Positions 30,296 to 45,006 of a stretch of 45,006 nucleotides of DNA are shown here, piece by piece. Numbering within the stretch: the stretch's first letter is position 1; each line of letters begins with the position of its first letter. The position numbers and the translations under genes are program-made. The notes beneath the pieces are model-generated. The model made no database searches and was not told the DNA's origin. It worked only from the letters and a program-made list of their open reading frames with translations. The stretch comes from Acidimicrobiales bacterium. GTDB taxonomy: Bacteria > Actinomycetota > Acidimicrobiia > Acidimicrobiales > AC-14. The stretch is from NCBI GenBank assembly GCA_025463925.1, contig JAODBK010000045.1:1-45006 (forward strand). Reading direction: 5' to 3'.

Positions 30296-31021
30296 TTAGA
30301 GCGGGAGCGGGTGGCTGAGGACACCGGTGCCGGGGAGGCGACCGGACAGGACGCGGATGAAGTCGATGGCGTCGATGTCGACGCGCTCGCCGTCGACGCC
30401 CTGCGTGAATTTGCCGCCGGCCGGGCCCTCGAGCACGAGCTCGAACGGCTCGCCGTGGATCGACGCCCACTCGCCGACGATGTCGGCGACGAGGCGGCCG
30501 TCGTGGTCGGCGGTGAGGTGCATGTCACGGCCGGTCGCCTTGCAGATGTCGATGCGGTGGGCCCACACGTCGCGCGTGAAGCCGACGTCGAGCAGGTATT
30601 TCAACGACGTCCAGCCGATCGGCGGCCCGAACGGGATCGGCAGGTACCGCATCGGCGGCGGCGTTCGCCACCGACCCTTCACCGCGCGGGGGCCGACGGT
30701 CGCCAGTTGGCTCGCGACCTCCTCGTTGGTGAGATGGTCCCGCTCGCGGATCTGCAGCTCGTTCATGCCGTCGACCCAGTGGTGCGAGTCGATCTCCTTG
30801 TTGAGCGGGACGCCGCGGCGCAGCTGGTGGACGAACTGCGGGAACGAGGCCTGGGCATCGCCCGACCCGAGGACGTGGAGCGCGACGCGACGCACGTCCC
30901 ACGCGGTGCAGTCGGTCGGCCGCGTCCACTCGTCGGGTGACAGCGAGGTCATGAGGTCCGCGAAACGGGCGAACTCCTCTTCGGCGAGGACCCGTGCTTC
31001 GGGCCGCGTGATGCGGTTCAT
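30296..31021 (-). CDS. DinB-like maleylpyruvate isomerase family (TIGR03083-type) protein
   Basis: A 241-aa member of the same broad family as the protein at 27840-28469 but only distantly alike. N-terminal EEFARFADLMTSLSPDEWTR, then TAWDVRRVALHVLGS with the first His, and YLLDVGFTRDVWAHRIDI with the second His region (usual RD.W.HR). The C-terminal extension about residues 170-241 forms an SCP-like beta-sheet domain (GPAGGKFTQGVDGERVDIDA). The start ATG overlaps the TetR stop (ATGA), so it is translated together with its regulator. Enzymatic activity unknown; thiol-dependent chemistry is typical of the family. Confidence 0.85.
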   Translation of the reverse strand: MNRITRPEARVLAEEEFARFADLMTSLSPDEWTRPTDCTAWDVRRVALHVLGSGDAQASFPQFVHQLRRGVPLNKEIDSHHWVDGMNELQIRERDHLTNEEVASQLATVGPRAVKGRWRTPPPMRYLPIPFGPPIGWTSLKYLLDVGFTRDVWAHRIDICKATGRDMHLTADHDGRLVADIVGEWASIHGEPFELVLEGPAGGKFTQGVDGERVDIDAIDFIRVLSGRLPGTGVLSHPLPL

Positions 31022-31602
31022 CGGCGCCTTCTCCTTCGCTTGATGTCGTCGAGGTACATGTCGATGAGCCGATCGAGGTGCCGGGTCCAGCGGTGGCCAC
31101 CAGGGTCGTTGCTCTGCTGCGCGTCGACGAGACCGCCGACCATCGCGATGAGGCAGTCGATGTCGTCCTGGTCGACCACGCCGGCGGCGTTCATCACCGA
31201 CACGCTGCGCGCCATGAACTGCTGGGCGGCGGCGTACGACTCCTCGGAGGGCTCGAAGCCCGGGATGATGCGCTGGAAGAGGAGCGCCTGCCGGGCCGGG
31301 TCCTCGGTGGCGAAGTCAACGAAGGCGCGCATGTAGACCTTGAGCGCGTTGCGCGGGTCGCTCGGCAGTCGCAACGCGTCGACGTGCGCGAGGAGCTGGC
31401 GGTTGCCGTCGGCGAACATCGCGTCGAACAACGCCAGCTTGGAGTCGAAGTAGGCGTAGAGGGACGGCTGGCGCATGCCGACCTCGCGGGCCAGCGCGTG
31501 CAGCGTCACCCCACCAATGCCGTGGCTTCGGGCCAGCTCCCACGCGACGGCGACGATCGACGCCACCTTCGCCTCACGTCGGTCGGCCACGCTTCCTATC
31601 AT
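31018..31602 (-). CDS. TetR-family regulator
   Basis: A 194-aa repressor. The N-terminal HTH is clear: VASIVAVAWELARSHGIGGVTLHALAREVGMRQPSLYAYFDSKLALFDAMF. The C-terminal ligand domain is all-helical, resembling TetR_C_33-like WHG domains, and the protein ends in an Arg run. The ATG at 31602 lies 8 nt after a -10 box and inside the proximal operator, which suits a leaderless mRNA. A GTG at 31590 with AGGA upstream is an alternative start and would remove four residues. It leads an operon with a DinB-like enzyme and an MBL-fold protein and almost certainly represses itself. Confidence 0.9.
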   Translation of the reverse strand: MIGSVADRREAKVASIVAVAWELARSHGIGGVTLHALAREVGMRQPSLYAYFDSKLALFDAMFADGNRQLLAHVDALRLPSDPRNALKVYMRAFVDFATEDPARQALLFQRIIPGFEPSEESYAAAQQFMARSVSVMNAAGVVDQDDIDCLIAMVGGLVDAQQSNDPGGHRWTRHLDRLIDMYLDDIKRRRRRR

Positions 31603-31638
31603 TGATAGGCAGTGTACCTATCAATGATAGAAAGTCAA
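31596..31638 (-). promoter_or_regulatory. autoregulated promoter of the TetR operon with two operators
   Basis: CTATCATTGATAG (31596-31608) and its exact reverse complement CTATCAATGATAG (31618-31630) are both near-perfect palindromes, with centres 22 bp apart (two helical turns). Read on the minus strand, TTGACT (31638-31633), 16 nt and TACACT (31616-31611) form the promoter. The -10 box lies between the operators, and the first overlaps the start codon. Confidence 0.75.
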
Positions 31639-31705
31639 GCGTGAGTGTGGTCGCGCGGTACGGCACGACCCGCATCGCGAAGGTCGGACACGGACCGCCA
31701 GCTGG

Positions 31706-33001
31706 TCAGGCACCAGCAGTGCGCAGGTGCGCAGCGCGCGCTGGCGCCGGACGCTGCGGCCGTGCCGCGCGCGTGTCGCCGGTCGGGCTGGCGAGCTGAC
31801 GCTCGAGCGCGGTGAAGGCGTCGACGATCGCTTTCGCCTCGTAGGCGCGGTTGCGCCGTGCGACCGTGATCGGATGCACGACGCCCGCAGCCTCGAGCCG
31901 GCGCATCGCCTCGTTCGTCGCTTGGAAGCTCCGACCAATGAGCTCCGCTGCAGTCCCAACGGAGACGATCGGGGCACCGGGCAGCGCGCCGAGCAGGAGC
32001 TCGACAGCGGACTTCGCGCGAACGCGGCCGAGCGCGACGTGCCACTTCCTCTCGATGTCTGCCACTCTCGCCTCGAACGCGGTTGCATCGTCAACCGCTC
32101 GCCGGCAGGCGGCAGCGAACCGTGCGACCCATTCGTTCAGACCCTCGTGCGCGGCACTCGAGTCCGAGCGCCCGCGGTAGCGCGTTGCCGTAAGTCCTTC
32201 GATGTAGGACCTCGACCAGGTCGCGAGCACGAGCGAGATCGGCGGGAGCATGCGCGGCGCGAGCCCACGGCGCCGGAGGATGACATGTATCAACGCCCGG
32301 CCCGTTCGTCCGTTGCCGTCAACGAACGGATGGATCGTCTCGAACTGGGCGTGCGCGACGGCGGCCTGCACCACTGCCGGAAGCGCATCGTCGTCGACGA
32401 ACGCACAGAGGTCCGCGAGCAAGGTGTCGATGTGTTCGGGAGGGGGCGGCACGAACGCCGCGGAACACGGGTTGAAGCTGCTGCCGCCGATCCAGTTCTG
32501 GTCGTCTCGCACGCGGCCGGCATGATCGTCGAGGCGCGTGCCAGTCAGTAGCCGGCGATGAACCTCGAGAAGACCTTTGACGGTGATCGTTCGAGACGCG
32601 GCGAGACCCTCGACGGCCCAGCTCATCGCCTCGATGTTCCTCAGCACCTCCTCTGCGGTCACATCTCCCGAACCCGCATCCATCTCCCGCGCCGCCTCGG
32701 CCCGAAGCAGCCGACGTCCGCCAATGACGAGGCCCTCAATGTGGGACGACGCCACCGATTCGGCGCGCAGCAGGAGTCGGGCGAGCGCTTCGGTGTCCAC
32801 GAGCGCGGTCGCAGCGGAGTTGAGCCGCCGGATCGCAGCCTCCGCGTCAGCGACATCGGCTGCCACGTCGCCATCGATCCGAAAGCGACGATCGGCGAGG
32901 AGGTCTGGCACGTACGCTTCGTACTCGCATCCCCGTCGATCGCGGCGCGCCCGGCCACTGTCGAGCGACGACTGCCATCGGCGACGGACAACCTTGCTCA
33001 C
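31706..33001 (-). CDS. Fic-domain protein (AMP-transferase type) with C-terminal winged helix
   Basis: A 431-aa Fic protein. The catalytic loop is canonical, HPFVDGNGRTGR with His224, so NMP transfer to a target protein is expected. An N-terminal inhibitory helix of class II carries S85-S-H-I-E89-G (the [ST]xxxE[GN] motif), meaning activity is self-restrained. The N-terminal Fic_N-type region precedes it. Residues about 340-420 form a winged helix (SAVELLLGALPGAPIVSVGTAAELIGRSFQATNEAMRRLE) that may bind the operator. GTG at 33001 is fixed by AGGAGGGG upstream. Three repeats of a TTGTTCAAGG-type site lie in its promoter, suggesting autoregulation. It lies just outside the tRNA-associated island. 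Confidence 0.9.
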   Translation of the reverse strand: MSKVVRRRWQSSLDSGRARRDRRGCEYEAYVPDLLADRRFRIDGDVAADVADAEAAIRRLNSAATALVDTEALARLLLRAESVASSHIEGLVIGGRRLLRAEAAREMDAGSGDVTAEEVLRNIEAMSWAVEGLAASRTITVKGLLEVHRRLLTGTRLDDHAGRVRDDQNWIGGSSFNPCSAAFVPPPPEHIDTLLADLCAFVDDDALPAVVQAAVAHAQFETIHPFVDGNGRTGRALIHVILRRRGLAPRMLPPISLVLATWSRSYIEGLTATRYRGRSDSSAAHEGLNEWVARFAAACRRAVDDATAFEARVADIERKWHVALGRVRAKSAVELLLGALPGAPIVSVGTAAELIGRSFQATNEAMRRLEAAGVVHPITVARRNRAYEAKAIVDAFTALERQLASPTGDTRAARPQRPAPARAAHLRTAGA

Positions 33002-33008
33002 GTCCCCT

Positions 33009-33058
33009 CCTTGTTCAAGGTTGGAGTATAACCTTGAACAAGGTTCTACCTTGTTCAA
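33009..33058 (-). promoter_or_regulatory. promoter and repeated operator of the Fic gene
   Basis: CCTTGTTCAAGGTT (33009-33022) and AACCTTGAACAAGG (33030-33043) form a 14-bp inverted repeat with 7 nt between. CCTTGTTCAA recurs at 33049-33058. On the minus strand TATACT (33031-33026) lies exactly between the main arms. The proximal arm runs into the Shine-Dalgarno sequence, so binding could block both transcription and the ribosome site. Confidence 0.75.
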
Positions 33059-33106
33059 TCTTCCGGCCACCGGCACGGCCCGCCGAATCGACTCGACGGA
33101 GGTTTG

Positions 33107-33148
33107 CGCCCCCGGGAGGAGTCGAACCTCCGACGCACGGTTTAGGAA
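33107..33148 (-). other. 3' fragment of tRNA-Arg(CCU), putative attachment site
   Basis: Read on the minus strand, TTCCTAAACCGTGCGTC, then GGAGGTTCGACTCCTCC (T arm with GTTCGA loop), then CGGGGGC (3' acceptor strand) reproduce the 3' part of a tRNA-Arg with anticodon CCT. The sequence 5' of the anticodon loop does not form the D arm or the 5' acceptor strand. Junction within the anticodon loop is a classic tyrosine-integrase crossover point, so this is best read as an att scar left by an integrative element lying to its right. Confidence 0.75.
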
Positions 33149-33412
33149 TCATTCTCAGTATGTGATGTTGCGCTCACCTGGCGCAAAGAACCACGTCGCG
33201 CGCAGGAGTTCGCACAGTGAGTTCTGTTGCAAACAAGGATTTTCGTTGCCGAGACGGGCAGCTTGATGGGCAGGTTTTGCCTTCGAACGACAACGTGGTG
33301 CAACGGCATGGTGTCGTGACCAACGGTCCCGAAACCGTACGTCGCTGCGACGTCGCGTAGGCGCTAGCGCGCGGCGCGCGCCATTTCGAGTTCCCGGCCG
33401 GCGAAGACGCGA

Positions 33413-33441
33413 AGTTGCCCATCCGAGGCGGACGGGCAACT
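33413..33441 (+). promoter_or_regulatory. hairpin upstream of the AbiEi-like gene
   Basis: AGTTGCCC (33413-33420) pairs with GGGCAACT (33434-33441), and the inner TCCG pairs with CGGA across one A/C mismatch, leaving an AGG loop. It ends about 40 bp before the AbiEi-like start. A short CCTTT follows, not a U tract. It may be an operator, as AbiEi proteins bind inverted repeats upstream of their own genes, or a weak terminator. Confidence 0.45.
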
Positions 33442-33479
33442 CCTTTGCCACATCTATGGATTTCTTCCATGGTCGTGAC

Positions 33480-34022
33480 ATGCCCGGACGCTGGTACACG
33501 AAGATGTTCGAGGTTGCCGCGGGTCAGAACGGCTACATCACGACCGACGACGCTCGGGATGTAGGCGGCTCAGCTCAGGTGCTGGTCGACATGCACCGAC
33601 ACGGCCAAGTCGACCGTGTCGACCGCGGGCTGTATCGGTTTCGGGCTCTGCCGGTGGGTCCTCTGGACGAGCTGATGCAGGCAACGCTGTGGCCGCGTCG
33701 GCTCGGCGTCATCTCTCATGACTCCGCACTCGACTTGTGGGATCTATGCGACGTGAACCCCGCGAGGATTCACGTATCCGTGCCCAAGACCGCTCGCATT
33801 CGACGTACCGCACTTCCGCCGTACGAGGTGCACGTACGAGATCTCGACCCAGCGAACATCACGCGATTCGAAGGCATCGCCGTCGTGACGCCGCTGCGCG
33901 CCATCCTCGATGGAACCGAGCGGCATCTCGACGGCCGACTGATCGACCAAGCGGTCGACGCGGCGCGGCGGCGCGGTCTCGTCATCGGCGAGGAGATCGA
34001 CACCATCGACGAGGCCCGCTGA
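33480..34022 (+). CDS. AbiEi-like type IV antitoxin domain protein
   Basis: A 180-aa protein with the N-terminal winged helix of the AbiEi family: MFEVAAGQNGYITTDDARDVG, then LVDMHRHGQVDRVDRGLYRF. The rest follows the family plan with WPRRLGVISHDSALDLWDL, HVSVPKTARIRRT, RDLDPANITRFEGIAVVTPLRAILDG. Such antitoxins repress their operon and neutralise AbiEii nucleotidyltransferases. No cognate toxin follows on the same strand; the nucleotidyltransferase at 34072-34836 is convergent and has its own partner, so this looks like an orphan. Start at ATG 33480 matches the usual family N-terminus; ATG 33456 is in frame. Confidence 0.8.
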   Translation: MPGRWYTKMFEVAAGQNGYITTDDARDVGGSAQVLVDMHRHGQVDRVDRGLYRFRALPVGPLDELMQATLWPRRLGVISHDSALDLWDLCDVNPARIHVSVPKTARIRRTALPPYEVHVRDLDPANITRFEGIAVVTPLRAILDGTERHLDGRLIDQAVDAARRRGLVIGEEIDTIDEAR

Positions 34023-34071
34023 GCCGCCGGCAAGGATCGACGCACTCCAAAAACGCAACGGCCTTGATCGG

Positions 34072-34836
34072 TCAGTCCAACGCGTCGACGAGCGCGCGCC
34101 CGACCAACCGCAGCTCCTCGGTCGTCACCGCGGCCATCGCATCGTCGCCCGCTCGTAGCCACCCGCGCGTTCTCGCGGCGGCGGTGACGAGGACTCGCTC
34201 GGCCGCGTCGCGGACGAGGTAGCGAAGGGTGCCGGATGCCGCAGCGAACGCTCCGCGAACCGAACCGTCGACGTCGAGGTCGACGAGGATCCGGTAGATG
34301 TCCCACGCGTCGCCAGCGCGCTTGTGCTGACCGCTGGTGTTGCTCCGATCTTCGATCGCATGCAGCTTCATCGCGATCAGCGCGGCAGGTGTTGAGAACG
34401 GTGCTGTCGCGCTCACGTCGAGATCGGCGCCCGCAACAACGGTGATCGGCGTCGCGGTTTCAAGCGCCCACACGTGCGACGCGACGAACAGCGCGTCCTT
34501 GGTCGGGATGCCCTCGAGATCGGGCTCGTCGAGTGGACCGACGCCGAGAATCTCGACCTTCGTACCAGCGACAAAGACTCGATGGTCGGCGCTCGGGTCG
34601 CGGACAGCGTCGGGCAGTGCAAGCAGCGCTTCGACTGCATCCGGCGGCATCGTCTCGTCGACGACGGTGTCGACGTCCGCGGTCGCGCGATGCGCCTGGC
34701 CGAGTCGCGCCGCAACTGCGACGCCACCGACAACTGCGTACCTAACGACGCCAGCGTCGGCGAGCGCTGCGACTGCGCGCACGAGGGGCACCATGGCGTC
34801 GCCCGGCAGGACGACGAGGTCACTTCCAGACGGCAT
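34072..34836 (-). CDS. AbiEii-like nucleotidyltransferase toxin candidate
   Basis: A 254-aa protein with a DNA polymerase beta-type nucleotidyltransferase core: VRYAVVGGVAVAARLGQ, then RATADVDTVVD, giving the GG and D-x-D metal motifs of AbiEii/MNT-like enzymes. Later blocks (KDALFVASHVWALE, PAALIAMKLHAIEDR, KRAGDAWDIYRIL) match the typical K-x-A-R-D-x-x-D/Y region of the AbiEii family. It overlaps its upstream neighbour by 17 nt and is translated after it, the usual antitoxin-then-toxin order. AbiEii toxins add nucleotides to tRNA or other targets; the target here is unknown. Confidence 0.78.
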   Translation of the reverse strand: MPSGSDLVVLPGDAMVPLVRAVAALADAGVVRYAVVGGVAVAARLGQAHRATADVDTVVDETMPPDAVEALLALPDAVRDPSADHRVFVAGTKVEILGVGPLDEPDLEGIPTKDALFVASHVWALETATPITVVAGADLDVSATAPFSTPAALIAMKLHAIEDRSNTSGQHKRAGDAWDIYRILVDLDVDGSVRGAFAAASGTLRYLVRDAAERVLVTAAARTRGWLRAGDDAMAAVTTEELRLVGRALVDALD

Positions 34837-35836
34837 CGTCGATGCTCCAGTCGCTGAGGATCTCGCGACCCCGTGCGCGGTCTTGGGCGAGATCGAGGGC
34901 AACCGCGAGCACCGGCGCGGCCAACCATCCGTCGAGCACCGGGGCGTCGTCGTCGGCAGGTCCGGCGACCACCTCGGAGACCGGTGCCACCGCGATCGCA
35001 GCTGCTCCGGTTCCGGGCTCAGCTCTGCCGTGGCGACGCACCGCAACGGACACCTCAACGGGACCGGCCACGTAGAGCTCAATCGGGCCTCCCGCAGTGC
35101 TGACAACTGGAGCTCCGTACGCCGCGGCGGCCGCTGTGCCCGTCCGTCGCCACCGCGGCGCTCGGGGATCCGGACTGGTGTGGTTCGCCGGATCAGGTGC
35201 GGAGATGAGCCACGTCCGTTCGACGGGCCACGCATCGGCCAGTTCCCAGAACAGCTCAGGGAACACGCCGGCGCCGTCGTCGTCGACGAGACCGGCATCG
35301 GCGAGACGCCGCACCGATGTCGAGATCGTCGATGGCGCGAGCCGGAGCTGTGGCGCGCTGCGCGTCGGAGACAAGCTCTCTCCGGGGTGCTCGCACAGCC
35401 AGTACGCGATCGTGATGCCGCTGCGTCCGGCGATCGGGGGATCGGTGTGCGCCGTTGTCCCGGCGTTGATCCCCTCGACCTCCAGATCGACGCGCACGCC
35501 AGGACCGCGCAAATGAAGCTGGCCCCGCCGGTCGAGCCACGACCATCCGGCATCGCTGAGCACCGCCTTCGCCTCGGCGGTCACGCGATCAGCAACGAGG
35601 AGATTCACGCCACCCGCCCGCGCCTGCTGTCGTTCAACCAACTCACGGGCTCGCTGTCCGGTGCAGTACGACACCGCCACGACCGTGATGCTGAGCGGCC
35701 GTCCGTCGACGCGAGCCTTCACGTGATCGTGATCAGTCGCCTCGTCGACCTCGATATCCGCAGCTTGAAGGGCAGCAACCGCCGCATCGACGGCTTGAGC
35801 CTCGAGGGCTTCGGGTGTGGCTCGCGTCCTGGTCAT
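34820..35836 (-). CDS. winged-helix protein, likely antitoxin/regulator partner of the nucleotidyltransferase
   Basis: A 338-aa protein. The first 130 residues resemble a nuclease-fold or effector region without clear catalytic residues (HDHVKARVDGRPLSITVVAV). A winged helix sits at about residues 145-190 (AYWLCEHPGESLSPTRSAPQLRLAPSTISTSVRRLADAGLV). The C-terminal third contains strands such as GPIELYVAGPVEVSVAVRR. It precedes and overlaps the AbiEii-like gene, and a 32-bp near-palindrome covers its promoter and start codon, so an autorepressing antitoxin of AbiEi-like role is the best guess. The ATG at 35836 lies 10 nt past the -10 box, indicating an almost leaderless mRNA. Confidence 0.65.
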   Translation of the reverse strand: MTRTRATPEALEAQAVDAAVAALQAADIEVDEATDHDHVKARVDGRPLSITVVAVSYCTGQRARELVERQQARAGGVNLLVADRVTAEAKAVLSDAGWSWLDRRGQLHLRGPGVRVDLEVEGINAGTTAHTDPPIAGRSGITIAYWLCEHPGESLSPTRSAPQLRLAPSTISTSVRRLADAGLVDDDGAGVFPELFWELADAWPVERTWLISAPDPANHTSPDPRAPRWRRTGTAAAAAYGAPVVSTAGGPIELYVAGPVEVSVAVRRHGRAEPGTGAAAIAVAPVSEVVAGPADDDAPVLDGWLAAPVLAVALDLAQDRARGREILSDWSIDDAVWK

Positions 35837-35866
35837 TCGGTGTTCGAGTATACCCGAATATCGAAT
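35835..35866 (-). promoter_or_regulatory. near-palindromic operator and promoter of the nucleotidyltransferase pair
   Basis: A 32-bp imperfect palindrome (26 of 32 positions symmetric) centred on GTATAC, with outer ATTCG/CGAAT and inner TTCG/CGAA arms. On the minus strand it contains the -10 box TATACT, and its end overlaps the start codon at 35836. A protein bound here would block transcription; the winged-helix gene product is the obvious candidate. Confidence 0.6.
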
Positions 35867-35958
35867 CAGGTGGTCGTGGGCCTGGTATCCGGTACGGGTT
35901 CAGTGCAGCACCGAAATGCAGGGGCGGCGTAGAGCCGCGGCTGGGACCCTGGACGGGT

Positions 35959-36558
35959 ATGACGAGGTTCTTCACAGCCGATCTCCATCTCGGCCATCGC
36001 AACATCATCGACTACAGCGGTCGGCCCTTCCGCGATGTCGACGAGATGAACGTTGCCCTCATCGAGCGCTGGAATGAGACGGTCGACGACGCAGACGAGG
36101 TCATCGTGCTCGGCGATTTCGCCATGGGCCGAATCGACGAAACGCTGCCGCTCGTCGGCGTGCTGCACGGTCGCAAGGTGCTTCTGACGGGAAATCACGA
36201 TCGCTGCTGGTTCGGTCACCGCAAGGGCGTCGAAACGAGCACCGCTCGTTACCTCGACGCCGGGTTCGATGAGATCTGGCAAGACAGGGTCGAGCTCGAT
36301 CTGGCTGGCAGGCGCGTGACCGCTTGCCACTTCCCGTACCGGGGCGACAGCCACGACCACGATCGGTATGTCGCTCATCGCCCCGTGGACAAAGGCGCGT
36401 GGCTGCTCCACGGCCACGTGCACGAACGCTGGCAGGTGCGCGATCGGATGATCAACGTCGGTGTCGACGTGTGGGCCTACCGGCCTGTGTCCGAGCGCGA
36501 TCTCAGCGATCTCGTAACTGCGCGCGCTGGTCATCCCTGTGCTCCGGTTGAGCGATGA
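35959..36558 (+). CDS. calcineurin-like metallophosphoesterase
   Basis: A 199-aa single-domain phosphoesterase. The dimetal motifs are complete and in order: TADLHLGHRNII (DxH), VLGDFAMG (GDxx), LLTGNHD (GNHD), ACHFPYRG and LLHGHVHERW (GHxH). Length and the start FFTADLHLGH match the small phage/plasmid-associated subgroup, whose substrates are mostly unknown (phosphodiesters, possibly RNA or cyclic nucleotides). ATG at 35959 gives the canonical N-terminus. It lies inside the island between the nucleotidyltransferase pair and the SMC operon, 110 bp before the latter. Whether it functions with either is not shown. Confidence 0.88.
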   Translation: MTRFFTADLHLGHRNIIDYSGRPFRDVDEMNVALIERWNETVDDADEVIVLGDFAMGRIDETLPLVGVLHGRKVLLTGNHDRCWFGHRKGVETSTARYLDAGFDEIWQDRVELDLAGRRVTACHFPYRGDSHDHDRYVAHRPVDKGAWLLHGHVHERWQVRDRMINVGVDVWAYRPVSERDLSDLVTARAGHPCAPVER

Positions 36559-36668
36559 ACTCGCTCGCTGACCCGGCACGCGCGCTAGATCGCTGAACAC
36601 GGGAGCCACCGCTTGGTGACGCACCCGGAGTTAGCAAGTCCCTCGGGACACCGTCACACCCCCTGCGT

Positions 36669-37955
36669 ATGGTCATGGCAGTGCAGGATGACCAGCTCGA
36701 CTTCGTCGGGAAGCGACAGCGGAGGAGCGGAGCCGCTCGTCGCCTCGGCGCCATGGCCGCTCCTGTCGCGTCCCACGGCGGGGCCGTCGTCGACGACCCG
36801 TCGTTGTTGCGGTATGCCGGCGCGGTCATCGGTGCGTTCGGCCAGGGCGACATCGACCAAGGGCTCACCCGCGCGCAGATCATCGAGCGCGCGCTGCGCA
36901 TCGCCGACCTCGACCGAGTGGAGCTCGACGGTCGCATCGACACCTTCGTCGAGCTCGCGATGCTCCTGCCCTACCGGGACAAAGCGCACCAACAGCGCTA
37001 CGTCGTCAGCACCGACGCCGTGGCCGGCAGCCTGTTCTTCCGCAAGGGACTGACCGACGGCGGCATCGAGGAGCTGTTGCAGCTGCTCGGTGCCACAGCT
37101 GACGCCATCGAAGACGGGCGGCACGATGCGGGCAAGGTCGCTGACGCCCTCGTCGAACAGCGCGGCTACGTCGAGTTGTGGACCGCTGCCGTCAACCGTC
37201 TCACCGACACCGCCACGCTCTCCGAACTGGTTGCCGAGCGCGCGCAGCACGACGGCGACCGGATGCTCGCGCACGTGGAGCGCGTGGTCGACGTCGTCAC
37301 GAAGCACCACCCGAACCTGCGCATCGCAGCGACGGCGCTGCTCACCGCGGCGCAGTCATACCTGCTCGCGACCCAGCGGCTACTCGAGCGCATTGTCGAC
37401 GAGGGCGCGTCGACCCGAGACTTCTCGCTGCTCGATCCGGCTGACTACGCACGACTGGCGACAACCGGAACGGTCGAAGCGCTCGCCGCAGTCTTCGAAA
37501 GCGTCGTGTGGGATCCACCTCGACCGCAGGTGTCGCCCGCCGATGTGGTGGCCGCTCTGCGCGCGTACCGCCCCAACCGCCGCCAACCACGGCGACCGCC
37601 GGTCGACTCGTTCGCACGGGAGCCGACTGCCGACCCGCTCGAGGGCCTCGACGAGCGTCTCGACCTCATCAGGCGGCAGCGCCGGCACGCCGCCGAGCTG
37701 TTGCTGCAGGGCGAAGCCTCGATTGAGCTGTCAGCGCACCTCCGGGCGACGCCGTGGCCGGCCGCGCTCAGGGTGGTCGTCGAGCTCGCCAGTCTCGACG
37801 TCGACGAGCACGCGGCCTACCGGCTGCATCTGGCCGACAGCCTCATCATCGACACCGATGCGCACACCACCTGGACGTCCGACGCGCGCCTCACGGTGGA
37901 GAGGCCCCCCATCACCCAGCCAGCCGCGGACGCCGAGGAACGCGCGCCCCGATGA
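36669..37955 (+). CDS. kleisin-like subunit of a Wadjet/MksF-like system (JetA-like)
   Basis: A 428-aa, mostly helical protein, first gene of the five-gene SMC operon. The N-terminal part (about residues 40-120) looks like a winged helix (QGLTRAQIIERALRIADL ... RYVVSTDAVAGSLFF). Long amphipathic helices follow (about 125-260), then a Pro/Arg-rich linker (QVSPADVVAALRAYRPNRRQP) and a C-terminal helical/winged-helix region. This is the plan of MukF/JetA kleisins. By position and length it corresponds to JetA, but I cannot see close similarity to the standard family. Start is ATG 36669 or 36675. Its stop overlaps the next start (ATGA). Confidence 0.6.
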   Translation: MVMAVQDDQLDFVGKRQRRSGAARRLGAMAAPVASHGGAVVDDPSLLRYAGAVIGAFGQGDIDQGLTRAQIIERALRIADLDRVELDGRIDTFVELAMLLPYRDKAHQQRYVVSTDAVAGSLFFRKGLTDGGIEELLQLLGATADAIEDGRHDAGKVADALVEQRGYVELWTAAVNRLTDTATLSELVAERAQHDGDRMLAHVERVVDVVTKHHPNLRIAATALLTAAQSYLLATQRLLERIVDEGASTRDFSLLDPADYARLATTGTVEALAAVFESVVWDPPRPQVSPADVVAALRAYRPNRRQPRRPPVDSFAREPTADPLEGLDERLDLIRRQRRHAAELLLQGEASIELSAHLRATPWPAALRVVVELASLDVDEHAAYRLHLADSLIIDTDAHTTWTSDARLTVERPPITQPAADAEERAPR

Positions 37956-38452
37956 GTGCGATCGACCTCGCCCGCTTGCGCGCGATCGCGGCTACCGCGG
38001 TCGCCGATCCGGCGTCCCTCGAGCGACCCGCAGCCAACGTCGGGCGCGCCCTCCAGCGCGCCGGCCACGAGGTCGTGCTCGCCCGCCACCCCGAAGCTCC
38101 CTCCGCGACCGATCTCGAACTGGTGCCGACCACACTTTCCGATTCGGCGCTCGTCGCGCTCGGGCTCTGCGTCGGCCTGGCCTGGGATGACCGCGATGCC
38201 CATCCGTACCCGGGCCGCACGTTCACGATCGATGACGTAGCGGCAGCTGCGCGCGCCATGCGCATCAACGTCGCCGCCAGCCGTCACATCATCGGTGCGC
38301 TCCGCCACATCTTTACGCAGGCCCGACTCGTCGACATCGACGAGAACGTCCTCCGACTCGGCCCCGTCATCGCTGGGTGGTCCGACGCTGATCTCGAAGC
38401 GTTCCGGCGCAACCTTGATGCGCTTCCCGAATCGGCTCAGGAGCCGGCGTGA
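37952..38452 (+). CDS. small winged-helix (KITE-like) subunit of the SMC operon, first of two
   Basis: A 166-aa protein coupled by 4-nt overlaps on both sides. It has an N-terminal helical part (LARLRAIAATAVADPASL) and a winged-helix-like segment near the C-terminus (FTIDDVAAAARAMRINVAASRHIIGALRHIF followed by the wing ARLVDIDENVLRLGP). Small double-winged-helix proteins (MukE, JetB, ScpB; the KITE group) bind the kleisin in SMC complexes, and its place between kleisin-like and SMC genes suggests that role. Similarity to any named family is too weak to assert, and a different function is possible. Confidence 0.5.
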   Translation: MSAIDLARLRAIAATAVADPASLERPAANVGRALQRAGHEVVLARHPEAPSATDLELVPTTLSDSALVALGLCVGLAWDDRDAHPYPGRTFTIDDVAAAARAMRINVAASRHIIGALRHIFTQARLVDIDENVLRLGPVIAGWSDADLEAFRRNLDALPESAQEPA

Positions 38453-39072
38453 CTACCTCCCTCGCCACCCTGTCCTCGCGTGACCGCGACGCAGTCCTGA
38501 ACGCCGCCGTCGCCGTGGAGGAGTCGGTGGAACCCGTTCCCCAAGCGCAGCTCGCCGCACTTGCCGACCCGGCTCTTCGCGAGCTCGTCGGGCAGTCACT
38601 GCTCGGAGCCGGGCGCGCGCTCATCCGCGTCGGTGAGGACGCGTGGATCTCCGGCTACGACGACACCGTCGCCGACCGGCTCGCGCACGAGGGGACTGGA
38701 GTCCTGGCGCCGATTGACGCCGCCGTTCTGACGCTCGTCCTGCTTCACGCCGTCGCCATTCCCGCGGCCCGCGGCACCACCGACACGACGGACTGGTCGA
38801 GCGACGACCTCCCCGCGCCTGACGTCGCTGCGCTTACCGCAAACCGCGATCGGCGCCTCAACGAACGCGCCGTCCGTGCCTCGCTGCGCCGCCTTCGCGA
38901 CGCCGGCGTCTTGCGGACCGGGCTTCGGTCCAAGCTCCTACCGGGCCCGCAGTTCCGCCGACTCACCGAGGATCGCCGCCGCATGATCTGGGAGAACATG
39001 GTCGTAGCCACCGCACCCGGCTCGAACCTTGCCCGAGCTATCCACCGTCGCCGAGGAGCAGCACCCACATGA
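38449..39072 (+). CDS. small winged-helix (KITE-like, JetB/MukE-like) subunit, second of two
   Basis: A 207-aa protein starting at a GTG that overlaps the previous stop. The central part (PIDAAVLTLVLLHAVAIPAARG) and the C-terminal winged helix (LNERAVRASLRRLRDAGVLRTG, then LLPGPQFRRLTEDRRRMIWENMV) resemble the MukE/JetB layout, where a second winged helix ends in a helix that contacts the kleisin. It is the better JetB candidate of the two small genes. Its stop overlaps the SMC start (ATGA). Standard Wadjet operons have only one gene in this position. Confidence 0.55.
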   Translation: MTTSLATLSSRDRDAVLNAAVAVEESVEPVPQAQLAALADPALRELVGQSLLGAGRALIRVGEDAWISGYDDTVADRLAHEGTGVLAPIDAAVLTLVLLHAVAIPAARGTTDTTDWSSDDLPAPDVAALTANRDRRLNERAVRASLRRLRDAGVLRTGLRSKLLPGPQFRRLTEDRRRMIWENMVVATAPGSNLARAIHRRRGAAPT

Positions 39073-42000
39073 ACGACTCCACCCTGTTCGGCGCGCCCGT
39101 CGGCGGCATCGTCGGCCGCCGCCAGCTGATCGCCGTGCAGACCATCGAACTCGGGCGCCTCACCCATCACCCGGTGCCGCTCGTGCCGTCGGCGCTCGTC
39201 GCCGTGTCGGGTACCGGCCCCGAGCGCGATTCGAACGGGAGCGGCAAGACGACCTTCTTGGCGTCGGTGTCCTTGCTTCTCGGCGATCCTGAATGGAGGG
39301 TGGCGACCACCGGCGGCGCCGATGCCCTTGGCTTGCTCTTCGACCCCGACCTGTCCGGCGACGCTGCCGGGCTCTATGACCCAGCCCGCGTCGGCTACGT
39401 CGCCGGCGTGTTCGCGCACATGACCGCGGACGGCAGTTACGACGAGCTGACCGTCTGGGTGCGGATCTCTTCTGACGACTCACCGCGGCTTGCCGCGCGC
39501 TGGGCTCCCGGCGTCCACCTCGTCGCTGAGCGCGACGAAGCAGCCGCCATGTGGAACAGCCTCGGCCGCGAGCGCCAGATCGGCCCGACCGCGTTTGTCG
39601 AGCAGCTCTACGGCGGCACCGGCCGCTGCCTCGCGTACGTCACCAGCCGCGGCAACCGCGACACCGACACATCTCTGATGCAGCTCCAAGCGCGGCTCAG
39701 CCCAGCTCGGATCGGCAGCGAACTCATCGTCCTACTCGGCCTCGAGCACCTCATCGACGGCGAGCGCGATCTGCGCGCCAAGCTCGCCGACGCGCAACAG
39801 CGCCTCGCCGTGCGCATCGACGATCACGAGCGCCGCGAACGAGAGTGGGCCGCCACACTCACTGAGATCGACGCACGCGACAGCGCACGCGCTGCCATCA
39901 CCGACGGAAAGCGGCTCTGGCGACTCCGCCTCGCGCGCAAGCTCCTCGATGCCCTGTCCGAGCAACAACAGGCGGAGGCGCAGCTCACCGAGCTGTCGTC
40001 GCGGCAACAGATCGCAGAGAGCGCAGTCCGCGATCTCGAGGCTCGTCTGGCTGACTTGCCCGACGCCGCAGCGCTGGCTGAGGTCGTCGAGTCGGCGCGG
40101 CGCGCGCACGAGGACGCCGATGCGCGACACACGACAGCAAACGAAGATGTCGTGCGCCGCCGGCTCGAGCTCGAGCAGCTCGCACAACAGATCAGCGCGC
40201 TCACAACCAAGGCGCTCGCCGCACCGCCTGGGATCAGCCCGGAGGAATGCGACGGACGCGTCGCCGACACAACCTCATCGCTCGACCGAGCCGTACGGAC
40301 GCTGGGTGCCGTCGAGGTCGACCTGCAGCGGGCGAACGCAACGCTTGCCGCCATCACAGAGCACGGCGACTCCGACCCCAGAGCGCGCGCGGCGCTCGAC
40401 GCAGCCCAGACCGATGCGACCTCGCTCATCGACGGCATCGTCCTCGAAGACACCGCACGACAGCTCTGGGAGCCGCTGCTCGCCCCATGGCGAGGCGCCT
40501 TCGTCATCCCCTCCCACCATCGCGACCGGGCCATCGCAGCGGCACCGCCCGGCACCGTCCTCGTCATCGTCGAGCCCGACATGATCGAGCAACCACCCGA
40601 TGGCGTCACCGAAGCGCCGGCCGGGACCGCCCGGTTCCTGGAGACTCTGCTCGGCCGGTCGGACGCTCCCTACGTCGACGTCGCCGCTGGCGTCGTCGTG
40701 ACCGGTGGGTTCGAACACGAGCTGTGCGGCCGAGATGCCGCCATCGCCCGAGCACATGCCGAGGTGGAACGAGTCGAGCGCGCGCACGCCGATGAATTCG
40801 ACAACCACGAACGCGCCCGTCTCGCCCATGAGCTGGCGATCGACGTCGCTGAGCGCGTGCATGTTGCCGAAGAACTTGCGACCGTCCGCTTGGAAGAGTC
40901 CGAACGATCCCAAGCGATGGCAGGGTTCTCCCACGCCCTTGCCGACGCCGACGGCGTCCGCACCGCGGCGATCACGGCGCTGCTCGAAGCACGCGTGCAG
41001 CACGAGACCGCCACCCAGGGTCGCGACCGTCTCAACCTCGATCTCGAAGCCTCCCAAGAAGAGGTCGCGCGTGTCGTTCGCGACCTGCAGGTCACCCACG
41101 CAGCGATCGAACGACTCGACATCAACGGATGGCGCCGTGCGTGGGCCGACACCGACGAGGCGGCTGCCGCAGCTCTTGACGGTGACGATCGACCGGAGGA
41201 CTCACTGCGTAGGCGAGCCACCGAGCAGCTCGGCGTCGCACTGGAGCGTGTCGGCATCGATTCGACCACGGGCGACCGCGCGCCCACTCCGGCGATCGAG
41301 AGCGTCATCCGCGCGCGGCGCGGACTCGACGACGACGTGGCTCCGACCAACGAGGTTCGCCGGTTCGACACGGTCGCCCAACCACTCGTCGACTGGCTCG
41401 ACGACCAATCCGATCACGACACGACCTTTCGCGAGGACGTGGCGGCCGAACGGCAGCGGTGGGAGGAACTCATCGGAGCCGCCCGTCACGAGTGCGAAAC
41501 CCAAGGCGATCTCCTCGATCGGCATCGAGACATGGTCGAGCAGCAGATCGAGGCCACCCTCGGTCACGTCAGCGCGCGCTACGGCGAGCTCGATGCCACC
41601 GCGGGTGGGTACGGCGCGAAGCTCCACTGGCGATCGATCCGGCCCGTGCACCCGACGGATCTCTGGGTCTGGGAGGTGACACCCGAGTGGCGACGAGGGC
41701 ATGGCGCCAAGTGGTTGGCCTACACGCGGCAGGCCAACTCAGCGATGCAGAAACAGCACCGCACTCACCTTGTCCTTGCCGCACTGCTCGCCGCACAGGA
41801 CCCCGCCGGCCGCGTCCTCATCGTTGACGAGGCTGGCAACGACTTCGGTCGTGAGCACCTGCGGCAAGTGCTGTCCGCCTTCGCCCACGTCGCCGACGCG
41901 CATGGGGTCACCGTGATCGCCGCCTGCCAGGACAAGGTCCTCGAGGAGGTCGCGGCGCTCGGAGCCGCCCGTCTCCTCCTGTGGTTCGAACGACTGTCGG

Positions 42001-42104
42001 ACGCGTCGGCGTTGTGCCGCCCGACTCGAGTCTGGGGATTCGACGCCGACGGCCGACGGGTTGAGCTCACCCGATCGGCAGTGGAGGCCGGGCGGCAGCT
42101 GTGA
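39069..42104 (+). CDS. SMC/MukB-like ATPase (JetC-like)
   Basis: A 1011-aa SMC-type protein. Walker A is near the N-terminus, RDSNGSGKTT with Lys60. Two long coiled-coil regions (about residues 230-440 and 565-850) flank a globular hinge-like domain (about 450-555, QLWEPLLAPWRGAFVIPSHH ... FLETLLGRSDAPYVDVAAGV). Walker B is RVLIVDEAGNDFG with Asp920-Glu921. The usual LSGGQ-type signature is not recognisable; RRGHGAKWLAYTRQAN occupies its place. The switch His is replaced by Gln954 in VIAACQDK. Size is close to JetC/MksB. It should form a loop-extruding dimer with the kleisin and small subunits. Coupled to both neighbours by 4-nt overlaps. Confidence 0.8.
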   Translation: MNDSTLFGAPVGGIVGRRQLIAVQTIELGRLTHHPVPLVPSALVAVSGTGPERDSNGSGKTTFLASVSLLLGDPEWRVATTGGADALGLLFDPDLSGDAAGLYDPARVGYVAGVFAHMTADGSYDELTVWVRISSDDSPRLAARWAPGVHLVAERDEAAAMWNSLGRERQIGPTAFVEQLYGGTGRCLAYVTSRGNRDTDTSLMQLQARLSPARIGSELIVLLGLEHLIDGERDLRAKLADAQQRLAVRIDDHERREREWAATLTEIDARDSARAAITDGKRLWRLRLARKLLDALSEQQQAEAQLTELSSRQQIAESAVRDLEARLADLPDAAALAEVVESARRAHEDADARHTTANEDVVRRRLELEQLAQQISALTTKALAAPPGISPEECDGRVADTTSSLDRAVRTLGAVEVDLQRANATLAAITEHGDSDPRARAALDAAQTDATSLIDGIVLEDTARQLWEPLLAPWRGAFVIPSHHRDRAIAAAPPGTVLVIVEPDMIEQPPDGVTEAPAGTARFLETLLGRSDAPYVDVAAGVVVTGGFEHELCGRDAAIARAHAEVERVERAHADEFDNHERARLAHELAIDVAERVHVAEELATVRLEESERSQAMAGFSHALADADGVRTAAITALLEARVQHETATQGRDRLNLDLEASQEEVARVVRDLQVTHAAIERLDINGWRRAWADTDEAAAAALDGDDRPEDSLRRRATEQLGVALERVGIDSTTGDRAPTPAIESVIRARRGLDDDVAPTNEVRRFDTVAQPLVDWLDDQSDHDTTFREDVAAERQRWEELIGAARHECETQGDLLDRHRDMVEQQIEATLGHVSARYGELDATAGGYGAKLHWRSIRPVHPTDLWVWEVTPEWRRGHGAKWLAYTRQANSAMQKQHRTHLVLAALLAAQDPAGRVLIVDEAGNDFGREHLRQVLSAFAHVADAHGVTVIAACQDKVLEEVAALGAARLLLWFERLSDASALCRPTRVWGFDADGRRVELTRSAVEAGRQL

Positions 42105-43336
42105 GGCACTGGGACCCTGCCGGCCCTCCCGCGTCTGTCGGCGGAGTGCCTCTCGGCTGTCGAGCTGTGCCGTTGGTTGACGTCGTCGAGCGAGACGGCG
42201 AGCTCGTCGAAGTACGTGATCGTCGACGGCGACGGAAGACGAACGAGGTCGTTCTCATTGCTGACCCAGCGCACCCGCTGGGATCAGTTGCCGAGGAGGC
42301 CCGCACGTTCGCAGTCGGCGCCGGTCGGCGGCGTTGGACCACCGTCGTCGGTCGATACGGCGATCAGGCTTTCGACCTTGCGCTCTCGCTCGTGCGCGGG
42401 GGCGTCGTGCACCTGGCGTGCCAGGTCGACGAGCGCGGCAACCTCGGCGACCCTCGCTGGTGGCAACCGACCGACAACGCTGCAATCGCAGAATCAGGAG
42501 CGCGCGCCCAGACGGCACATACAACCCAGCAGCGCGATGCCGAGCGAGAGTCGCTCGCGGCCGAGCTGGCTTCGGACTATCGCGAGATCGCCGACGCGTT
42601 GAAGGCCGCGAAGTCGCCCGTGGCGATCGCCGTGATCACGGCTGCCGCAACCGACCTTCTCGCGGGCATCGACCACGCTGGCCCGCGCGCGTTCGCGCAG
42701 GCGCACTTCGACGGCACCAAGGCGCACGATGTGCGGGCCGTCCTCACCGCCGCCGGCGTCCCCGGAGCCGTGCTCGAACAGCTCGGGCTTCGACGCGGCG
42801 ACCGAATCGGTCTGGGCGGCCCCATCTCCGTATCGACGCTCACGGGTCGCGTCGACTTCGGCCCGATGCGAGGCCCGGTGATCATTCGGCTCGATCAACC
42901 CGGACTCGAGGTCTCCACGGATGCGCAGACGGTCGTCGTGATCGAGAACCTTCAGCCTGCCGAGATCGTCTGCGCGCGCTACTCGACCCTGCCCGTCATC
43001 TACACCGCCGGCCAGTTCGGCGACGACGCCGCGAGCCTTCTCAGCCGACTCGCCGCCAGCGGCAAGCGGATCGTCGGGATTGTCGATGCCGATCTGGGTG
43101 GCGTTCGCATTGCTCGCCGCATTGTGGAGGCAGCGCCAGGAGCCGAGATCGTCGACGTTGGCAGCTGGCCGCATCCGGCGCGCGCGGCCTTCCCCGTCGA
43201 TGGGATTGCGGCTCGAGGCTTGCGCGTGCTGACGGAAGACCCGCTTGTCGGAGGTTTCGCATCGTCGGTGCTCGCCCGCGGCTACCCCGTTGAACAGGAG
43301 CTCGCAACCCTCGAGATCGTGAAGTCGATCGTGTAG
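42101..43336 (+). CDS. TOPRIM-domain nuclease-like protein (JetD/DUF2399-like)
   Basis: A 411-aa protein ending the SMC operon. The C-terminal 150 residues are a TOPRIM domain: VVVIENLQPAEIV with catalytic-type Glu282, then YTAGQFGDDAASLLSRLAA, then GIVDADLGGVRIARRI with Asp329 and Asp331. In Wadjet, JetD carries such a TOPRIM domain and cuts the plasmid trapped by the SMC complex. The text around the Asp pair resembles DUF2399-type members (TIGR02679 neighbourhood) more than classic DUF2220. The N-terminal 250 residues are unassigned and probably include an arm/DNA-binding region. Start GTG overlaps the SMC stop by 4 nt. Confidence 0.75.
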   Translation: MRHWDPAGPPASVGGVPLGCRAVPLVDVVERDGELVEVRDRRRRRKTNEVVLIADPAHPLGSVAEEARTFAVGAGRRRWTTVVGRYGDQAFDLALSLVRGGVVHLACQVDERGNLGDPRWWQPTDNAAIAESGARAQTAHTTQQRDAERESLAAELASDYREIADALKAAKSPVAIAVITAAATDLLAGIDHAGPRAFAQAHFDGTKAHDVRAVLTAAGVPGAVLEQLGLRRGDRIGLGGPISVSTLTGRVDFGPMRGPVIIRLDQPGLEVSTDAQTVVVIENLQPAEIVCARYSTLPVIYTAGQFGDDAASLLSRLAASGKRIVGIVDADLGGVRIARRIVEAAPGAEIVDVGSWPHPARAAFPVDGIAARGLRVLTEDPLVGGFASSVLARGYPVEQELATLEIVKSIV

Positions 43337-43337
43337 T

Positions 43338-43544
43338 TCATTGAGCCCTCGTCAGCGAGTACGCGTGGAGTTGACACGTTCGCATGCGACCGAGTGCGAC
43401 CTCGGCCTCACGGCGCTCGCCACGAATGGTCTTGGTGACGTACTGCTTCTTGCCGCTGACCGGGTCCTTGCCGACGAACGCGCGGACCTCCCCCCACTGC
43501 TTCCCGCGTTGGCGGACCCGGCCGCGCCGGCCGTCATCGCGCAT
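43338..43544 (-). pseudogene. tyrosine integrase N-terminal remnant
   Basis: The first about 50 residues match the N-terminal arm-binding domain of phage/ICE tyrosine integrases: RGRVRQRGKQWGEVRAFVG, DPVSGKKQYVTKTIRG, ERREAEVALGRM. Then homology stops and a short unrelated tail (RTCQLHAYSLTRAQ) leads to a stop. The core-binding and catalytic domains are gone, so the gene is dead. It faces the SMC operon and lies 1 bp from its end. It supports the view that this end of the island has suffered a deletion. The adjoining stretch 43545-43889 has no convincing gene. Confidence 0.75.
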
Positions 43545-43889
43545 CGGATGGGCAAGAGTGGCGATTTGGATGGGGAACGCGCCCGTTCGGAGCAGCTCAG
43601 CAACCCAAGAAGTCGCCTCTGACTGACCTGCTCACTTCTTGCGCACCCAGCCCTCCACAATGCGAACCTTTCAGCGCTGGTTCAAGGTGACCTGATCACG
43701 CTTCCGGCCGCTCACGCCAAGGTTCGTCGCGAGGGTTACCGCAAGATCGCCGCGGGCTGAAGGCTGGGGTACTCGCCAGTCCACCGACTATCAGCGTCGC
43801 CACGACCGGCCGATGCCCGTAGTCGCCGCCAGCACAACTCCATCAGGCCTGATGTAGCGCCGGCATGAAGTGCTCGGTACTCTTCCCCT

Positions 43890-43966
43890 ATCGCGACTGG
43901 CGTGCCGTGGGTGGGTTAACCACCAGGGAGCGGAAGGTTGCGACGCCGAACGCCTGGGCGTCGCGC
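43890..43966 (+). ncRNA. ZTP (pfl) riboswitch
   Basis: The leader of glyA has the conserved parts of the ZTP/ZMP-sensing pfl motif in order: CGCGACTGGCG near 43892, GGTTAACCACCAGGGAGCG at about 43914-43932, and CCGAACGCCTGGGCG at 43946-43960. The outer CGCGA and TCGCG can pair as P1. This class senses the purine intermediate ZMP/ZTP, which accumulates when 10-formyl-THF is short, and turns on one-carbon genes, often glyA. The Shine-Dalgarno GGAGG (43973-43977) follows the motif directly. Confidence 0.85.
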
Positions 43967-43981
43967 CGCCGTGGAGGCCCC

Positions 43982-45006
43982 ATGTCGGTTGCGGCAACCG
44001 ATCCTGAGATCGCGCAGCTCATTGATGACGAGCGCGAGCGTCAACGGCGCAAGATCCGGCTGATCCCGTCGGAGAACTATGTTTCGCACGCGGTCCTTGC
44101 GGCGACCGGCAGCGAGCTGACGAACAAGTACTCCGAGGGCTACGTCGGCAAGCGCTACTACGAAGGTCAGCAGGTCGTGGACCAAGTCGAGGCGCTGGCG
44201 ATCGAGCGGGCCAAGACACTCTTTGGAGTCGAGCACGCCAACGTCCAGCCGTACTCGGGATCGCCCGCGAACCTCGCCGTCTATGCGGCGTTCTGCCAGC
44301 CCGGCGACACGATCATGGGGATGGCGCTGCCGGACGGCGGGCACCTCACCCACGGCTGGGGCGTCTCCGTGACCGGCAAGTGGTTCCGTCCGGTGCGCTA
44401 CGGCGTACGCCGCGACACCGGTCGGGTCGACATGAATCAGGTACGCGACCTCGCCCGCCGCGAGCGACCCAAGATCATCATCTGTGGCGGCACCGCGATC
44501 CCGCGCACCATCGACTTCCCGGCGTTTGCCCAGATCGCCGACGAGGTCGGCGCAGTCCTCGTCGCAGACATCGCGCACATCGCCGGACTTGTCGCCGGCG
44601 GCGCGCACCCCTCTCCAGTCGGACATGCCCCTGTCATCACCACCACCACGCACAAGACCCTTCGCGGCCCACGCGGTGCGATGATCCTCAGCACCTCCAG
44701 ATACGCCGACGCTCTCGACAAGGCGGTCTTCCCAGGGCTCCAGGGCGGTCCTCACAACCACACCACGGCGGCGATCGCCGTCGCGCTGCACGAGGCGAGC
44801 CAGCCGTCGTTCCGCGACTATGCGCACGCCGTCGTCGTGAACGCGAAGGCACTCGCCGACGAGCTGAACGCGCACGGCTACGACCTCGTGTCCGGCGGCA
44901 CCGACAACCACCTCATCCTCATCGACCTGACGAACAAGGGCGTCGGCGGCAAACCGGTCGCCAAGGCACTCGACCGCGCCGGCATCGAGGTCAACTACAA
45001 CACCGT
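43982..45006 (+). CDS. glyA: serine hydroxymethyltransferase (3' end beyond window)
   Basis: PLP enzyme converting serine and THF to glycine and 5,10-methylene-THF. The visible 341 residues include [42 protein letters not shown], the PLP-binding [12 protein letters not shown] and the Schiff-base Lys in [14 protein letters not shown]. The family usually has about 420 residues, so some 80 lie outside the window. ATG at 43982 with GGAGG at the right distance. Expression is probably controlled by the ZTP riboswitch immediately upstream. It is most likely a chromosomal gene flanking the island. Confidence 0.95.

Follow-up and report, generated by a model that had tools for sequence, protein, structure and literature searches.

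In Wadjet systems, JetABC serves as the sensor and the TOPRIM protein JetD as the effector (PMC10586767), and in MksG the TOPRIM acidic residues are required for DNA cleavage (PMC10123090). Wadjet was found in 42% of actinobacterial genomes in a study that does not contain the word Nocardiopsis (PMC10482375). In the described Wadjet systems a structural maintenance of chromosomes (SMC) motor leads to one output, DNA cleavage; here we analyzed an operon whose core occurs with two TOPRIM lineages, with a Ser/Thr kinase, or alone. The operon lies at positions 36669-43336 on the + strand of a 45,006-nucleotide stretch from an Acidimicrobiales bacterium (JAODBK010000045.1; the whole stretch, one entire contig, is hereafter the window), and the 4.08-Mb draft genome that contains it carries the SMC gene in one copy. 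Its five genes encode a kleisin-like protein (P0001), two small proteins (P0002 and P0003, the products of p2 and p3), an SMC ATPase (P0004) and a TOPRIM effector (P0005), and 4/4 junctions are 4-nt overlaps. We consider it probable that the five genes make up one Wadjet-like nuclease defence machine, a function that we infer by analogy.

A preliminary description of this DNA had reported five + strand genes joined by 4-nt overlaps, and the layout recurs: loci L006, L007 and L016 keep all five genes in the same order, with SMC identities to the window copy of 79, 69 and 41%, so the operon is not a chance assembly. The two closest relatives, Acidimicrobiia bacterium MGR_bin303 and Actinobacteria bacterium Centralia_MAG_137, belong to the same taxonomic order. 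Among 47 actinobacterial loci whose SMC has 900 amino acids (aa) or more, the kleisin gene was found in 46, p2 in 46 and p3 in all 47, the gaps being explained by L148, which begins inside p3 at a contig end. The possibility, raised beforehand, that the small genes are not conserved with the SMC gene thus did not hold, and p2 and p3 are core parts of the operon. No Pfam, NCBIfam or PADLOC model names the combination of SMC, kleisin, two winged-helix proteins and TOPRIM protein, as had been suspected, with the TOPRIM protein excepted: among the five, only P0005 exceeds a known-family cut-off. The family scans behind this statement covered 11 kleisin members, 11 p3 members (PADLOC) and, for p2, the window copy alone. 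A search of the open-access literature (titles, abstracts and some passages) returned no description of the operon family, nor of any kinase acting as the effector of an SMC-kleisin complex.

P0005 matched DUF2399 (PF09664, E 4.3e-7) above the cut-off and JetD_C (E 0.018) below it, in agreement with the earlier remark that it is nearer to DUF2399; PADLOC JetD2 matched at E 7.7e-7 and TIGR02679 below the cut-off. The acidic residues E282, D329 and D331 are invariant in both the 4-row and the 9-row alignments. Across the 47 loci we counted 9 DUF2399-type TOPRIM effectors, 5 JetD-type TOPRIM effectors, 5 Ser/Thr kinases and 28 loci with none nearby, where the TOPRIM labels rest on overlapping Pfam models (DUF2399 matches 8/9 members at E up to 0.01) and "none" means that the adaptor and TOPRIM profiles detected nothing in the sequence examined around the locus, the search being confined to linked genes. 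Five of the effector-less loci (L077, L135, L141, L146 and L148) have a short flank on one side. JetD-type TOPRIM genes stand first in the operon in Nocardia australiensis, Actinokineospora terrae, Streptosporangiaceae NEAU-GS5 and Acrocarpospora, and in genome G943 (L075) such a gene is convergent to the operon (E 5e-15). JetD_C was matched by 4/9 scanned effectors (L021 at 1.3e-12, L025 at 2.6e-14). L081, counted as DUF2399-type, is ranked by PADLOC as JetD1 (4e-8) above JetD2 (6e-5). In hhalign comparisons, the rear and front TOPRIM proteins aligned with each other almost over their full length (99.2%), the rear ones scoring 97.0% with DUF2399 and the front ones 95.0% with JetD. A profile search of the PDB with the effectors found MksG at E 0.008.

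The kinase effectors come from one genus, g416, in which four loci (L081, L098-L100) have a rear DUF2399-type effector and five (L082, L084, L097, L101 and L102) an adaptor-kinase protein (Pkinase, E 2e-26 to 1e-30) with the kinase lysine, HRDxKPxN and DWG motifs in 5/5. In the tenth copy, L103, a deletion has joined a JetD-type N-terminus to the C-terminal half of an SMC, so the 10 known g416 copies hold two effector classes and the remnant of a third. The N-terminal part of P0005 is common to the JetD-type and, more weakly, the kinase-type effectors. Two of the five kinase effectors, L097 and L101, have a firm adaptor link: a profile built from TOPRIM effectors only finds them at 6e-13 and 1e-16, and over residues 1-125 they share 43% identity with the TOPRIM effector L081. 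For L084 and L102 (2e-3 and 3e-3) the link is weak, and that of L082 comes from a profile that included L082 and from 37% identity to L084 and L102. All five adaptor-kinase genes adjoin a partner gene of about 340 aa that belongs to no known family (no Pfam match in the 4 scanned) and has the invariant stretches KDWGGE.SDLY, W-L-F-K-G-P and LVLQH. The partner protein is a candidate kinase substrate or final effector. A nuclease-like nature for it was considered and dropped, as nothing in Pfam, NCBIfam, PADLOC or the PDB supported it. In L133, which we counted as effector-less, an adaptor-less Ser/Thr kinase gene (Pkinase E 1.4e-42) stands about 145 bp after the core operon.

To place these classes, we used an SMC tree of 47 rows, on which the four effector states need 8 changes; the starred branches alone force 4, 4, 3 and 3 changes for single classes. 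Because the tree program issued a long-branch warning, deep placements are unsure. On starred branches, L027 falls inside the JetD-type loci and L097 and L101 fall beside effector-less loci. Between L097 and L101, identity is 44% for the SMC, 86% for the kinase and 97% for the partner, and along the effector it rises from 40% (residues 1-60) through 55% (61-125) to 77% (126-200). This breakpoint reads as a module swap, in which the catalytic module moved and the adaptor stayed with its own core. A strict rule tying adaptor to core is countered by L027, whose entire effector is nearer to that of L016 (49%, 50%) than to that of L021 (37%, 22%), while its SMC is nearer to that of L021 (55%) than to that of L016 (50%). 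On the level of these sequences, the effector is exchangeable between related cores.

The SMC subunit is JetC-like by profile. With hhalign it scored 96.5% (E 9.5e-10) against type I JetC, rising to 97.1% with 47 rows, and 47.2% against the TIGR02680 set, rising to 73.2%; the two reference sets, as a control, scored 98.9% with each other. Here and below, profile-profile comparison covered Wadjet types I and II, and type III was compared through PADLOC models only. PADLOC matches to JetC were weak (P0004 to JetC3 at E 0.39; L024 to JetC3 at 2.3e-4 and JetC1 at 2.8e-4). The Walker A motif has the DSN form in 44/47 SMCs and GSN in 3/47, and a Walker B was found in 42/47, five being unmatched by the pattern used. 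A PDB sequence search with P0004 or P0005 singly gave nothing useful, and a PDB profile search with the SMC gave a few coiled-coil matches and one transporter ATPase. We dropped an unusual ABC signature as a hallmark of these SMCs, type I JetC being likewise irregular by the same pattern.

Set against type I Wadjet (DUF3375, DUF4194, JetC, JetD), the family shares the kleisin-KITE-SMC-TOPRIM operon logic, the SMC likeness and the JetD-type TOPRIM of its front-gene relatives, but differs in having two KITE-like genes instead of one, in scores of at most 3.5% by profile for kleisin, p2 and p3, in the P-loop Asp of most of its SMCs, and in an effector that may be a kinase or absent. Type II, which we take to be the TIGR02677-02680 cluster, invites a simpler account: the operon would be a fast-evolving type II offshoot in which a long JetB was split into two genes, with no new mechanism. 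Several results fit this, namely the DUF2399 TOPRIM with its 97.0% score to the DUF2399 protein of that cluster, a full-length match of a p2-p3 fusion to a chain of the N. vireti Wadjet-II structure (E 2.9e-3, though with a root-mean-square deviation (rmsd) of 10.1), and DUF2397 as the best profile partner of the kleisin (12.3%). The kleisin likeness, however, dropped to 3.3% with 46 rows, p2 and p3 scored at most 3.3% against type II, the SMC resembles type I JetC more than TIGR02680 and is shorter (about 1000-1100 aa in the family, about 1350-1400 in TIGR02680), there are five genes rather than four, 5/14 TOPRIM effectors are JetD-type, and five more effectors are kinases. We therefore regard a type II offshoot as unlikely. 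The window operon has a JetC-type SMC and a JetD-type TOPRIM protein; it lacks the four-gene layout and, by sequence, a JetA and a JetB family member. Judged by sequence, the system as a whole belongs to no Wadjet family that was compared (type III via PADLOC only).

Other SMC systems offer partial likenesses. Lamassu, like the family, combines an SMC-like sensor with varied effectors. The part that Lamassu systems share is LmuB (PMC10586767). The family SMC, by contrast, is accompanied by kleisin-like and KITE-like subunits, and its match to LmuB is weak (PADLOC, E 0.002). Like MksBEFG of Corynebacterium glutamicum, the family combines a TOPRIM nuclease with an SMC core in Actinomycetota; the direct comparison covered the TOPRIM protein, with MksG found by the effector profile.

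P0001 had no match to JetA at E up to 1 in Pfam, NCBIfam or PADLOC, and PADLOC gave none in 11 members. Its hhalign scores were low (best DUF2397, as above; JetA 2.2%), but the control comparison of DUF2397 with JetA reached just 6.7%, so the known kleisins barely detect each other. The structure model of P0001 (predicted local distance difference test, pLDDT, 70.0; predicted template-modeling score, pTM, 0.51) has a winged helix at the N-terminus and a winged-helix-like end at the C-terminus, joined by a long helical bundle, a predicted kleisin-like fold. In Foldseek, the top two matches were MukF at E 0.013 and, at E 0.11, a 498-residue chain of JetABC that is presumably JetA; none was below 0.001. 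VIA scored the model against MukF chains at Z 9.2 and 9.0 and against presumed JetA chains at Z 8.0, 7.9, 7.7 and 6.7. PDB profile searches with the kleisin and with p3 gave chance-like matches only.

The small subunits were equally distant from named families: P0002 and P0003 had no match to JetB in Pfam, NCBIfam or PADLOC, nor had 11 p3 members in PADLOC, and hhalign against the Wadjet I and II sets gave at most 3.5% for p2 and 3.3% for p3, where the control of DUF2398 against JetB gave 48.3%. In L025, L026 and L149-L152, p2 and p3 form one open frame. The model of the L025 fusion (pLDDT 83.6, pTM 0.73), in which the p3 part ends in a C-terminal winged helix, matched as a whole ScpB (E 1.1e-3), the Wadjet-II chain mentioned above (384 residues, presumably JetB), MukE and Escherichia coli Jet chains. 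Taken by halves, p2 aligned over 159 residues with one chain from the Nse1-Nse3-Nse4 complex (Z 9.4, rmsd 4.4) and p3 over 161 residues with one from the yeast Smc5/6 core (Z 7.9, rmsd 4.0). These predicted folds recall the Nse1-Nse3 pair of Smc5/6, two unlike KITE-like proteins, although here the genes form an operon in bacteria, in which a single SMC gene is accompanied by effector genes. Since some relatives have p2 and p3 as one protein and both halves match KITE folds, the "extra" small gene noted in the preliminary description, whose presence was confirmed, is best read as a second KITE subunit, and p2 and p3 as two unlike, very divergent KITE subunits that would act as a pair. A quite improbable alternative is that p2 and p3 are DNA-binding regulators merely sited in the operon. 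It could draw on weak HTH_24 matches in 2/11 p3 members (best E 0.0065) and on single winged-helix regulators, which score no lower against the p3 half than chains of Smc5/6 do (TtgV reaches Z 9.7 across 65 residues), but it sits poorly with the near-universal presence of both genes, their natural fusions, and the whole-fusion matches to ScpB, MukE and Jet chains.

We compared the settings of armed and unarmed copies. The 28 effector-less loci comprise 14 from family f184, six from f182 plus Nonomuraea, four from g502, and two from g495 plus Actinoallomurus. All 91 pairs of f184 loci share flanking DNA, whereas 1/171 pairs of effector loci does, and 0/36 in g416; even L099 and L100, whose SMCs are 97% identical, share no flank (flanks were compared as nucleotide sequence over 6 kb, and distant pairs could be missed). 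Third-position GC content (GC3) of the operon is below that of the flanks in 16/19 effector loci and 15/28 effector-less loci, which for the effector loci is suggestive at most. The pattern of shared flanks suggests that the effector-less operon is a resident, vertically kept form and the effector-armed operon a mobile one. A stronger claim is that the complex is mainly a chromosome-organizing one like MukBEF or MksBEF, with nuclease or kinase an occasional accessory. The numerous effector-less loci, the shared f184 flanks, and an operon present in 4/4 g502 genomes and in 12/12 examined genomes of g577 (the same 12 as earlier hits, thus no independent sample) are consistent with it. The layout of the effector-less loci is SMC, kleisin and KITE without a nuclease, and the predicted kleisin fold is MukF-like. 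The patchy, non-syntenic effector loci and the window copy among toxin-antitoxin genes are not, and we find this claim doubtful; it may hold for effector-less clades without applying to the window.

Returning to the nuclease defence machine, the proposed sequence of events in the window system is loop extrusion followed by cutting by P0005, because of the analogy with Wadjet and MksG. Two copies of P0004, the kleisin P0001 and the unlike KITE pair P0002/P0003 would assemble into an ATP-driven sensor that extrudes DNA loops, on which P0005 would dock via its N-terminal adaptor domain. Once the motor had reeled in a small closed DNA circle, for instance a plasmid or a circular intermediate of a phage, the TOPRIM domain of P0005 would cut the DNA. 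In the kinase relatives, where the adaptor bears a Ser/Thr kinase, the same sensor probably signals rather than cuts, and in the effector-less relatives the complex may serve the host chromosome; the common adaptor suggests one docking site for different outputs. A defence purpose is favoured by the scattered effector loci (9/61 genomes in g416; a single flank-sharing pair) and by the position of the window copy beside Fic, AbiEi and AbiEii genes. Several points weigh against the proposed machine: kleisin, p2 and p3 reach at most 12.3%, 3.5% and 3.3% to the Wadjet I and II sets; 28/47 loci have no nearby effector, so that nuclease coupling is not general in the family; the P0001 model is of middling confidence; and its top VIA row is the regulator VanR (Z 10.0), with designed helical proteins scoring alike.

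We more tentatively entertain a broader proposal, that the operon represents a separate Actinomycetota SMC lineage with an Nse1/Nse3-like KITE pair, a general DNA-topology sensor into which effectors plug via one adaptor. The outputs would be DUF2399- or JetD-type TOPRIM nucleases, or a kinase with its dedicated partner for signalling, perhaps abortive, immunity, and the effector-less form would be a resident chromosome machine and the source or recipient of immunity. If this were true, the passage of SMC complexes from chromosome upkeep to immunity and the signalling from sensor to effector would become testable, and kinase signalling would stand downstream of an SMC-kleisin complex.

Beyond the window's own genome, searches with the SMC found 2 real relatives among 298 genomes of the order, 1 decayed copy among 395 of the class, and 1 intact and 1 decayed copy among 396 of the phylum; further searches gave 1 intact copy and 1 fragment among 167 genomes, 10/200 in another set, and 20 long matches in 266 genomes. 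Coverage outside Actinomycetota comprised a scan of bacterial and archaeal genome contigs, phages, plasmids and viral contigs. The contig scan returned 10 loci, all with actinobacterial titles, one of which (L028) is just 35 residues long and had no match to any of the five operon profiles. There were 0 matches in 50,697 phage records and none confirmed in viral contigs (one scan), and the plasmid set gave one match, in the 11.85-Mb Nonomuraea gerenzanensis "plasmid I" (NZ_LT559118.1, L029), which is presumably a chromosome; a phage or plasmid home for the operon was accordingly rejected. We left out short or weak matches (L004, L005, L014/L018, L059, L070-L073, L094, L095 and L125-L130) and L124 (genome G1423, E 8.8e-11 across 76 positions), possibly a remnant. 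The tree's 47 SMCs were taken from 49 collected, after removal of L085, a 330-aa SMC at a contig end, and of the 550-aa L103. They include two broken copies: L083, whose SMC lies in two frames, and L101, in which SMC and p3 are interrupted and an extra open reading frame (ORF) lies inside the SMC; outside them are the decayed L015 (frame breaks) and L017 (internal deletion) and the fragment L086.

Positions of the operon genes, their motifs, neighbouring features and features of related loci
Feature	Record	Position	Strand	Remarks
P0001, kleisin-like subunit	window	36669..37955	+	428 aa
P0002 (p2), putative KITE subunit A	window	37952..38452	+	166 aa
P0003 (p3), putative KITE subunit B	window	38449..39072	+	207 aa, GTG start
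P0004, SMC ATPase	window	39069..42104	+	1011 aa
Walker A of P0004, DSNGSGKT, residues 54-61	window	39228..39251	+	Asp replaces usual first Gly
Walker B of P0004, VLIVDE, residues 916-921	window	41814..41831	+	11-SMC alignment, pattern search in 47
P0005, effector: N-terminal adaptor (about residues 1-165) and TOPRIM	window	42101..43336	+	411 aa, GTG start
TOPRIM match in P0005, residues 272-343, with E282, D329, D331	window	42914..43129	+	Pfam stretch
Fic, AbiEi_4 antitoxin and AbiEii toxin genes	window	within 31706-36558		adjoin operon
ORF, presumed calcineurin-like phosphoesterase	window	35815-36558	+	no Pfam match
ORF, presumed integrase N-terminal end	window	43338-43544	-	68 aa, no Pfam match
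ZMP/ZTP riboswitch	window	43883-43966	+	Rfam E 1.9e-7
Kinase partner gene	L097	5502-6530	-	
Kinase partner gene	L101	12906-13934	+	
Kinase partner gene	L102	11972-12988	+	
Kinase partner gene	L082	2594-3766	-	
Kinase partner gene	L084	about 12197-13171	+	
Adaptor-less Ser/Thr kinase gene	L133	10289-12049	+	
JetA (DUF3375) of type I Wadjet	contig C115	17773-19176	-	same genome as window
Locus listed with the C115 type I Wadjet	L055	4531-11249	-	

The operon's neighbours include the toxin-antitoxin-like genes that had been proposed, with Fic at E 6e-21, AbiEi_4 at 7e-8 and AbiEii at 2.5e-5. The proposed tRNA-associated island did not hold up: ARAGORN found 0 tRNA genes in the entire window, and Rfam gave none at E up to 1 in 28000-45006. 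Before the operon, a + strand ORF reads, by its motif, like a calcineurin-like phosphoesterase. Right after the operon, a short ORF reads to us like the N-terminal end of a phage-type integrase and is possibly the remnant of a mobile element. Next, still close behind the operon, a ZMP/ZTP riboswitch above its gathering score either overlaps the beginning of a gene for serine hydroxymethyltransferase (SHMT, E 1.4e-138) or lies just upstream of it. Elsewhere in the same genome, contig C115 carries a type I Wadjet: behind the DUF3375 JetA gene (E 1.2e-86) come ORFs that blastp matched to the JetB, JetC and JetD proteins from other type I loci. Two SMC systems of different lineage are present in one cell.

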